Shown: positions 13,183-14,754 of the stretch, in pieces
Position numbering within the stretch: position 1 is the first letter of the stretch
How the letters are laid out: each line of letters begins with the position of its first letter
Origin: a virus
IMG/VR virus record: IMGVR_UViG_3300012936_000112
Location: 1-29,106 of that record
Length of the DNA stretch: 29,106 nucleotides
Direction: 5' to 3' (one strand)
Notes under the pieces: model-generated
The model's input: only the letters and a program-made list of their open reading frames with translations
The model's database searches: none
Told to the model about the DNA's origin: nothing
Position numbers and translations under genes: made by a program

Positions 13183-14169
13183 TTATTTTGCTTGTAATGA
13201 ACCAGCAACTGATGTGCGTAGTTGACCTACACCCATGCTGAGTTTTCCTACAATTAAATCACCTTGGTATTGAACTCTGAAAGATTCAGATGTTGTTTCC
13301 ACAGTTGGAGAAACAGTCTCTACAACACCAGCCGCATCTCTATGGAAGATAAGACCAGCACATTTATCATTTGTATCTGTGTAGTCGTTATTTTCTCCAG
13401 TTACTGCTGAGTTATAAGCTGCCATGAAAGGTAGGTTATTTGACTTGTATAACTTAACTCCAGCAATAGAGAAAAGTCCTTCGCCACTATTTACAGAACC
13501 TTGTGTTCCACCTAACTCTCTGTTAAGAATGTTTGTATCAACAGAGGAAATAAGTGATAGGTACTGACGTGGAGAAAGTACACAAGAGATTCCATCAGTA
13601 GGAGCATTGCGCTCTTCTAGTACAGCTCTTGCCTCGAAGATACCGTCAACGATAGCTTGTGCATCAAACTGTTTACCAGATCCGATAGAAACTTCAAATC
13701 CACCATCCTCACCTGTTACCGCTGCACTAGCTCTAGATGCCATATCAAGAACTCTGAAGATTCTCTGGTCATAGAATTTTGCTAATGCCTCACCGATCTG
13801 CTTAGATATTTCAGATCTTTGAGAGTAATGAGACAGAATCTCATCGAGGTCATATACAAACTGAGAGCTAATTAATAGGTCGTCTGCATTAATTGTGACG
13901 GCGTTTGCCTTTAATGCTGCATCCCCTAATATAGGCTGCCCAGCGGTATGGAAACCCGCGCCTAGCTTACCTTGTAGTAAGAACTGCTTACTCTTTGCTC
14001 CTCTTAAGGTGTAGCTTCTAACTAGACCTTTTGCGATTGAAGCTGAATTGAATGCGTTAAATACTTCGCCAGAAAAGACGGTTAACGCTGTTGCATATTT
14101 GTTTGCAAATGTATTACTCTGATTACCATTTACTGAATGGGGGCGAGTAATATTAGCCATGTTAGTCAT
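13183..14169 (-). CDS. Major capsid protein (T7 gp10-like)
   Basis: The 328-aa protein matches T7 gp10A (345 aa) in size, place and pattern. It begins with an Asn/Thr-rich arm (residues 1-25), then KYATALTVFSGEVFNAFNSA, the typical start of the HK97-fold capsid in this group. The segment FYDQRIFRVLDMAS and the C-terminal VETTSESFRVQYQGDLIVGK region are also characteristic. The start ATG 14169 is chosen because AGGAG lies 9 nt upstream; the next ATG (14160) has no comparable site. Its long leader and strong ribosome binding site agree with high expression. Confidence 0.96.
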   Translation of the reverse strand: MTNMANITRPHSVNGNQSNTFANKYATALTVFSGEVFNAFNSASIAKGLVRSYTLRGAKSKQFLLQGKLGAGFHTAGQPILGDAALKANAVTINADDLLISSQFVYDLDEILSHYSQRSEISKQIGEALAKFYDQRIFRVLDMASRASAAVTGEDGGFEVSIGSGKQFDAQAIVDGIFEARAVLEERNAPTDGISCVLSPRQYLSLISSVDTNILNRELGGTQGSVNSGEGLFSIAGVKLYKSNNLPFMAAYNSAVTGENNDYTDTNDKCAGLIFHRDAAGVVETVSPTVETTSESFRVQYQGDLIVGKLSMGVGQLRTSVAGSLQAK

Positions 14170-14325
14170 GGTCTTTAACTCCTATAAAAAAAATATTTAC
14201 GATTTCGACATGTCTAAAGTTTGAAAGATTTAACCCTCTTTCCGAGGTGTACACCCCAAAAGTTATCCGACGTATCGGGCTAGTGGGAAATTGAGTAGGG
14301 AGGAATCGAACCTCCCCTAGATCAC
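14170..14325 (-). other. 156-nt non-coding leader upstream of the capsid gene
   Basis: This gap between the YRG peptide gene and the capsid gene holds no convincing ORF. It contains several structures: the T-arm-like hairpin at 14298-14316 (separate entry), a CCGA-CGTA-TCGG short inverted repeat at about 14268-14279, and a perfect 10-bp palindrome GGTGTACACC at 14246-14255. An AT-rich stretch and the capsid Shine-Dalgarno AGGAG follow. A late promoter for the phage polymerase would be expected around here by analogy with T7 phi10, but I see no sequence resembling the T7 promoter. Confidence 0.5.
14291..14316 (-). other. tRNA T-arm-like hairpin; possible tRNA 3'-end (attP-type) fragment or terminator
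   Basis: On the minus strand GGGAGG-TTCGATT-CCTCCC forms a 6-bp stem with a 7-nt loop. The loop fits the tRNA T-loop rule (TTCRANN, with G before and C after), and CTACTCA plus A follows, as an acceptor strand and discriminator would. No matching 5' acceptor half (TGAGTAG) or D and anticodon arms exist upstream; that space is the YRG peptide gene. It is therefore not a whole tRNA. It could be a phage copy of a host tRNA 3' end, as used for integration, although the integrase is about 13 kb away. It could also simply be a terminator hairpin 9 nt after the YRG stop codon. Confidence 0.45.
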
Positions 14326-14435: not shown

Positions 14436-14501
14436 CCTCAGTACCTGACCCCCGTTCCATGGTCAGATCTCATGCGTCCCTTTCGGGATGAACGGACGTG
14501 T
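14436..14501 (-). promoter_or_regulatory. Glutamine riboswitch-like RNA (downstream-peptide type)
   Basis: Read on the minus strand, all elements of a three-stem junction with a pseudoknot can be drawn. P1 pairs CCGTTC (14495-14490) with GAACGG (14457-14452). P2 is TCCC-GAAA-GGGA (14488-14477). P3 is CATG...CATG around a loop AGATCTGAC. The loop segment CTGACC (14466-14461) pairs with GGTCAG (14450-14445), just after P1 and just before the GAGGTG ribosome binding site. The P1 start CGTTCATCC and the GGGACG following P2 resemble the conserved core of glnA/downstream-peptide RNAs, known in cyanobacteria and cyanophages and shown for the family to bind glutamine. The pseudoknot next to the ribosome binding site suggests control of YRG peptide translation. 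Structure is seen; family membership is recalled; ligand is inferred. Confidence 0.7.
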
Positions 14502-14503
14502 CG

Positions 14504-14644
14504 TTACTTTTTCTTTTTTTTCTTTGGGAAACCAGCTTTCATATTTGAGTATGCTTTCGCTGTGATAGTACTATTTTTTTTTGATCTGCTAGTACCAGCC
14601 TTCTTGCGAGCATTAATGTTCGCGTATAAACCTCGCTTTGCCAT
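14504..14644 (-). CDS. 46-aa Lys/Arg-rich small phage protein
   Basis: The frame runs from ATG 14644 to TAA 14504. It begins MAKRGLYANINARKKAGTS and ends in a run of six lysines encoded by an A-rich tract. Similar small basic proteins with an RGLYANI opening are common in marine cyanophages and pelagiphages near the capsid genes; I recall no proven function. The strong positive charge suggests nucleic-acid binding, perhaps in packaged DNA or on RNA, which is inference. Its ATG overlaps the hli stop codon (TAATG), so it is translated with its neighbours. The riboswitch-like RNA starts 3 nt after its stop. Confidence 0.75.
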   Translation of the reverse strand: MAKRGLYANINARKKAGTSRSKKNSTITAKAYSNMKAGFPKKKKKK

Positions 14645-14754
14645 TACCAAATATTAGGGATGATTTGTCCTGTGATTGCGTATGCTCCAAGAGCCGCGAT
14701 AACTCCTAGCATGGCTAGTCTTCCATTCCAATGTTCTGCTTTATGCCAATCCAT
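14644..14754 (-). CDS. hli: High-light-inducible protein (Hli), 36 aa
   Basis: The gene encodes 36 aa with the Hli/chlorophyll a/b-binding signature: AEHWNGRLAMLG (ExxNGRxAM, the pigment-binding helix start), a Gly/Ala-rich membrane helix, and the TGQIIP ending seen in cyanophage Hlis. Hli proteins bind chlorophyll in the thylakoid membrane and protect photosystem II during light stress. Phage copies are thought to keep host photosynthesis running during infection. The start overlaps the upstream stop (TAATG at 14756-14752), and the stop overlaps the next ATG in the same way. The place between scaffold and capsid genes is where cyanopodoviruses carry photosynthesis genes. No psbA accompanies it here. 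This gene is the best single indicator of a cyanobacterial host. Confidence 0.85.
   Translation of the reverse strand: MDWHKAEHWNGRLAMLGVIAALGAYAITGQIIPNIW

Follow-up and report, generated by a model that had tools for sequence, protein, structure and literature searches.

Introduction

Glutamine-II riboswitches (Rfam RF01704, formerly named Downstream-peptide) are well described: publications cover the class itself, the ligand, the ON behaviour and the link to YRG/DUF4278 peptides. In the crystal structure 6QN3 (Huang et al., 2019; PMC6698751), whose helix names and base numbering are followed here, glutamine is contacted by C1, G18, C39, and G40, and the site contains a G18>G2:C39 triple and the pairs C19:G41 and A33:G42. 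Regulation in the family was called likely translational (PMC6698751), and an ON switch was demonstrated for a Prochlorococcus DP element (PMC6316151). Most known RF01704 cases lead host genes, among them those for DUF4278 proteins behind type 2 switches such as PMM1846 of MED4 (PMC6316151). A role of picocyanobacterial DUF4278 proteins at glutamine synthetase is putative, being suspected from IF17 and itself unproven (PMC6316151). IF17 (GifB), a glutamine synthetase inactivating factor, has an N-terminal DUF4278 part and is likewise controlled by a glutamine riboswitch according to the literature. Phage-encoded glutamine riboswitches have been published for T4-like cyanophages and for the methylophage Melnitz (PMC9602691, PMC9964418, PMC9004378).

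The locus described here lies in a stretch of viral DNA of 29,106 bases (the window, meaning the whole stretch analysed). Its switch has the architecture and all core bases of RF01704 members and a small YRG ORF at the usual distance, but it is phage-borne and intercistronic in a late operon. The Glutamine-II leader, the YRGxxY motif, and the small basic protein are shared with PMM1846 and its like; DUF4278 proteins of Prochlorococcus and Synechococcus, however, usually have two or three units, whereas the phage peptide has one, at its C-terminus, together with a new N-terminal helix. Unlike IF17, which is under a type 1 (glnA) switch and carries an inhibitor part at its C-terminus, the phage peptide has no such part. 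The T4-like cyanophages and Melnitz are other phage types with other genes, and the Melnitz case concerns a tmRNA and a glnA-like motif. In the part of the literature that was covered, neither the variant core reported below nor the conservation of a module among T7-like cyanophages was found to be described, and the widespread unannotated use of the switch in these phages seems not to have been described previously.

Identity and anatomy of the element

Searching the window with cmscan (Rfam 15) gave RF01704 as the sole match at the gathering threshold, with 53.3 bits against a cut-off of 33, an E-value of 1.9e-10, and coverage of model positions 1-60 of 60; judged from its sequence, the element is near certain to be a genuine Glutamine-II riboswitch. 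This bears out the preliminary description, which had proposed a glutamine-sensing riboswitch of the downstream-peptide family in a cyanophage and had named a covariance search as the way to check it. The span given there, 14436-14501, does contain the element, but the model bounds and the minus strand are those of Table 1. A covariance model built from phage aptamers (R1) scored the window aptamer at 72.8 bits, with the window being part of its training set. The Glutamine-I (glnA) model RF01739, a three-way junction with loop E, reached 16.8 bits against a cut-off of 35, which leaves the element outside that family. Plain minimum free energy folding of the aptamer was unremarkable (z -0.81 and 0.31), yet folding energy is uninformative here because the aptamer is a pseudoknot, and the evidence is therefore the covariance model and the covariation.

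In 6QN3 numbering, the window has C1, G2, G18, C39, and G40 as well as the pairs C19:G41 and A33:G42. L-glutamine binding by the window RNA, and activation by it, are predicted from the literature on other family members. The stems drawn in the preliminary description were read correctly, but their labels were exchanged: its P1 is the pseudoknot (PK), its P2 is P1, and its pseudoknot is P2. A further stem, CATG/CATG, drawn there as P3, was rejected: across 27 phages no compensatory change was seen, and of its two variable pairs one is broken in 6 phages and the other in 9.

Table 1. Positions of the switch, its parts and the surrounding features (window coordinates unless a locus is named).
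Feature	Position	Strand	Remarks
Glutamine-II riboswitch aptamer, RF01704	14497-14443	minus	full length
PK 5' strand CGUUC (C1-C5 of 6QN3)	14494-14490	minus	pairs with GAACG 14457-14453
PK 3' strand GAACG	14457-14453	minus	sits in P2 loop
P1 hairpin UCCC-GAAA-GGGA	14488-14485 / 14480-14477	minus	compensatory changes in 4/4 pairs
Linking strand CGCA (C17 G18 C19 A20)	14476-14473	minus	invariant in alignment A2
P2 hairpin AUCUGACC / GGGUCAGGU (CUGACC/GGUCAG helix)	14468-14443	minus	loop holds PK 3' strand
Shine-Dalgarno GAGGTG	14439-14434	minus	3 nt past P2 end
34-aa YRG peptide MTQVELQARLKEQREAKRESLLKYRGVAYKRVIK	14430-14326	minus	single C-terminal DUF4278 YRGxxY unit
T-loop (tRNA T-arm-like) hairpin GGGAGG-TTCGATT-CCTCCC	14297-14317	minus	between peptide and capsid gene; outside switch
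Major capsid protein (Gp10A-like)	13183-14169	minus	PF21703, E 1.7e-51
46-aa basic ORF directly upstream of switch	14504-14644	minus	PHROG 25774, E 1.7e-21
hli (high-light inducible protein)	14644-14754	minus	PHROG 178, E 3.7e-17
Flipped-core variant switch, locus L314	424-465 of L314	plus	variant loci also include L313, L316, L318, L319, L152, L153

Covariation across 27 diverse phage aptamers was strong. In the structure made of PK, P1, and P2, 96.3% of cells were paired, and 72 cells had changed on both sides compared with 17.4 after shuffling (0 of 500 shuffles as high), while every one of the slid-structure controls collapsed. A larger alignment of 75 model-aligned matches (65 distinct) gave 97.2% paired cells and 154 both-side changes against 30.9 shuffled, with compensation in all four P1 pairs and in six of the seven P2 pairs. 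The PK showed standard pairs in 27/27 phages with 5/5 pairs kept, an invariance that is partly due to the search pattern, which demanded PK pairs; in SS120-1, which was found independently via capsid homology, one compensated change of C5:G36 to U:A was seen. The alignment of related phages that the preliminary description had suggested thus turned up strong covariation in P1 and P2 and one compensated case in PK, and the outcome it had named as refuting (no covariance-model match and uncompensated breaks of the stems) was looked for and did not arise.

Genomic setting and mode of control

The window comes from a T7-like cyanophage, a marine cyanobacterial virus, and the switch sits inside its late structural operon, where the gene order is portal, scaffold, hli, 46-aa basic ORF, switch, YRG peptide, capsid, and tail tubular genes. 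The preliminary description had placed it between hli and the capsid gene; its direct upstream neighbour is the 46-aa ORF and not hli. This ORF stops 6 nt before the aptamer, so that the switch is intercistronic with no space for a promoter of its own. The same ORF is lysine-rich, has ~75% DNA identity to pelagiphage HTVC119P and to cyanophages Syn5 and S-TIP28, and is a small gene common to phages of unrelated hosts. As a separate observation, the window carries a tyrosine integrase (PF00589; 27032-28024, minus strand) in an otherwise T7-like cyanophage.

Both the ribosome binding site and the 34-aa ORF that had been noticed behind the element are real. Where a recognisable Shine-Dalgarno sequence was present in phages, the start codon mostly lay 20-24 nt downstream of the aptamer core (65 of 81 cases), and a search for an intrinsic terminator or a sigma-70 promoter beside the switch gave nothing above chance. 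The end of P2 three nucleotides before the Shine-Dalgarno sequence, together with the terminator not being found, points to translational control as the probable mode in this phage. An alternative pairing that masks the Shine-Dalgarno sequence without glutamine was sought and none was found, with predicted accessibility at 0.48 for the free and 0.49 for the aptamer-enforced state (66 sequences, p = 0.17); a GGGUCA/UGACUC alternative over the start codon of the window was rejected as a general fold for hiding this site.

A single-unit relative of host DUF4278 proteins

The window peptide matched DUF4278 (PF14105) at 15.2 bits (E 0.029), which is under the gathering cut-off of 25.3. Phage homologues scored 14-24 bits, matching the C-terminal part of the domain, while three host examples were above the cut-off at 29-43 bits. 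Comparing phage and host peptide profiles gave an E-value of 7.7e-5, but with only 62% probability over 14 columns. The YRGxxY unit was found to be related to host DUF4278 members, whose loci share the upstream switch. One YRG-type unit was present in 133 of 136 phage peptides, and two or three in 70 host peptides behind an RF01704-type switch. YRG was itself a selection criterion for the peptide set, whereas the tyrosine at +3 (85/85) was not. Values of pN/pS of 0.35 for the N-terminal part and 0.40 for the YRG core indicate purifying selection, and the claim of a small YRG peptide gene directly behind the switch stands. One subset of phages has a shorter peptide of 16-18 aa.

The preliminary description had also raised the idea of a nitrogen-status peptide. 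This holds in a refined form, because host counterparts behind RF01704-type switches exceed the DUF4278 threshold, and what the phage encodes amounts to one such unit; it may imitate or compete with host DUF4278 proteins. PirA was considered as the closest host analogue and set aside, as it is reported to be absent from marine picocyanobacteria (PMC8092223).

A functional aptamer might instead serve a peptide with a role internal to the phage, for example in binding a protein of the virion or one of the host that has nothing to do with nitrogen; glutamine would then merely signal a nutrient-replete cell. The N-terminal half (VELQARVKEQ), which is conserved among phages and new relative to hosts, and the persistence of the gene near structural genes are both consistent with such a role. 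However, the host-like YRGxxY unit is the only part common to all phage peptides, and alleles differ at the N-terminus, which renders this explanation rather improbable.

The explanation I favour, with a probability of about 0.7, is that a glutamine-ON Glutamine-II switch governs translation of a host-mimicking, nitrogen-regulatory YRG peptide, and that both are accessory cargo and not a means of capsid control. It builds on the family membership, covariation, peptide conservation under purifying selection, and module mobility found in this study, and takes glutamine binding and the ON direction from the literature on relatives. High L-glutamine would bind in the PK groove and stabilise PK and P2, upon which the ribosome site three bases past the aptamer would be used and the YRG peptide made. 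The peptide would represent a minimal version of the glutamine-switched DUF4278 proteins of the host, consisting of a new N-terminal helix followed by one YRGxxY unit, and would most likely act on host nitrogen assimilation, either at glutamine synthetase or as a mimic or competitor of DUF4278 proteins. As a whole, the module would then be accessory cargo which phages swap and lose, and not a device for controlling the capsid gene.

Spread and exchange of the module

An exact-pattern scan of viral contigs, which by its design selected for the aptamer core, returned at least 120 stretches. Among the matches listed, the YRG ORF came next after the switch in 100 of 107 refined matches; capsid and tail genes then followed in most and gp222 and then capsid in some, while at L004, L032, L066, L081, L093, L094, and L100 the module preceded endonuclease, primase, or polymerase genes. 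For a second sample, not selected for the core, 40 capsid-homologous contigs were taken that extend 300 nt or more upstream; the phage model matched 29 of these. Twelve of 17 cultured T7-like cyanophages scored above the RF01704 cut-off, namely P-SSP7, SS120-1, S-TIP28, S-CBP4, S-CBP1, NATL1A-7, 9515-10a, S-TIP37, S-RIP2, P-SSP10, P-GSP1, and P-SCSP-R27W. No switch was found in Syn5, P60, S-CBP42, S-CBP2, and S-B28, or in pelagiphage HTVC119P. None of the annotated cultured-phage records lists the riboswitch and most omit the YRG ORF; a few small hypothetical ORFs are present (e.g., STIP28_41 and STIP37_31), and the P-SCSP-R27W record is without any annotation.

Closely related phages differ at this position. 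L122, L124, and L125 (capsid 97-98% identical) and L126 (96%) have a different peptide allele (M-K-V-I/T-F-V-YRGVAY), and L123 (97%) and L127 (94%) are without switch and peptide while the last codons AAAGAGTAAT and the capsid leader are kept. Gain or loss of the module occurs near the short direct repeats AAGTAAC / AAGAGTAAT. Such differences in presence and allele at 94-98% capsid identity imply an exchangeable accessory gene and argue against an essential role in capsid expression. The module of switch and peptide is exchangeable accessory cargo, common and unannotated in T7-like cyanophages. That the element is instead a passenger, copied from the host and now neutral or decayed, is barely credible and already largely refuted: close relatives do exist without the module and some copies score low, but the compensatory changes, the purifying selection, and the wide recurrence contradict it.

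The preliminary description had suggested that capsid expression is tuned to host glutamine, and such tuning of capsid or structural genes could be direct or arise by translational coupling with YRG as a leader peptide. The module is mostly immediately upstream of the capsid gene, and this order is conserved in many phages. Nevertheless, the peptide stop and the capsid start are 156 nt apart, with a conserved separate leader in between, the gp222 gene and more intervene in NATL1A-7, 9515-10a, P-SSP10, and P-SCSP-R27W, the module-less L123 and L127 have the same leader, and several loci carry the module ahead of endonuclease or primase genes. Coupling, moreover, would not need the peptide sequence that is under purifying selection. 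The suggestion is not supported and is very unlikely to be correct.

In one of the best studied groups of marine phages, P-SSP7 included, a nitrogen-sensing riboswitch paired with a tiny host-related protein is widespread as unannotated cargo. Models such as P-SSP7 on Prochlorococcus MED4 offer a direct way of testing how infection is connected to the glutamine status of the host. As peptides of 16-39 aa are under the usual limits of gene calling, nitrogen-related auxiliary genes of cyanophages have probably been under-counted.

A putative flipped-core variant class

A separate scan, which reached contigs via weak-scoring capsid relatives and counted those with a YRG ORF downstream, found 46 viral contigs (20 distinct cores) where CGGGT...GGAACGCG (ACGCG) replaces CGCA...GGAACGGGG. 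A capsid gene was near the variant switch in 42 of them. In 6QN3 numbering, C19:G41 has become G19:C41, which is also the pair of the glnA consensus. The bases of direct contact (C1, G18, C39, and G40) are unchanged. P2 is retained as well and, by inspection, differs between lineages in a compensatory manner (GCTCA/TGAGC, GCCTC/GAGGC, and GCTCC/GGAGC). When 11 variant loci were searched with both Rfam glutamine models, all stayed below the cut-offs, with a match at E < 0.5 for only two of them. To judge by these base patterns, the variant is a putative glutamine-riboswitch class in T7-like cyanophages that both models miss. One 47.6 kb record (L153, G006) has two glutamine-II-type switches at 1696-1754 and 34737-34789, one standard (60.5 bits) and the other of the flipped-core type (31.1 bits).

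A bolder proposal is that in T7-like cyanophages glutamine-gated, single-unit DUF4278 mimics widely override host control of glutamine synthetase as glutamine rises during infection, and that these phages evolved their own flipped-core aptamer subclass; I consider this possible but doubtful.

Other features of the capsid region

The T-loop hairpin between the peptide and capsid genes recurs at 18 of the 36 related loci, compared with 0.25 expected, and lies there 137-192 nt upstream of the capsid start. Its stem varies with compensation while the T-loop motif is kept, and it is also present in the switch-less phages Syn5, L123, and L127. It is perhaps an RNA processing or stability element. 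A tRNA or tmRNA as the source of this T-arm-like hairpin was rejected, as ARAGORN found none and the best Rfam match had an E-value of 0.29, and repeats in the capsid leader were dismissed as phage promoters because they gave just weak matches with three mismatches. Lastly, some related T7-like phages have a Group I intron (82-93 bits) within their major capsid gene, at L145:4465-4692, L146:4900-5127, L161:4208-4416, and L162:1831-2057.
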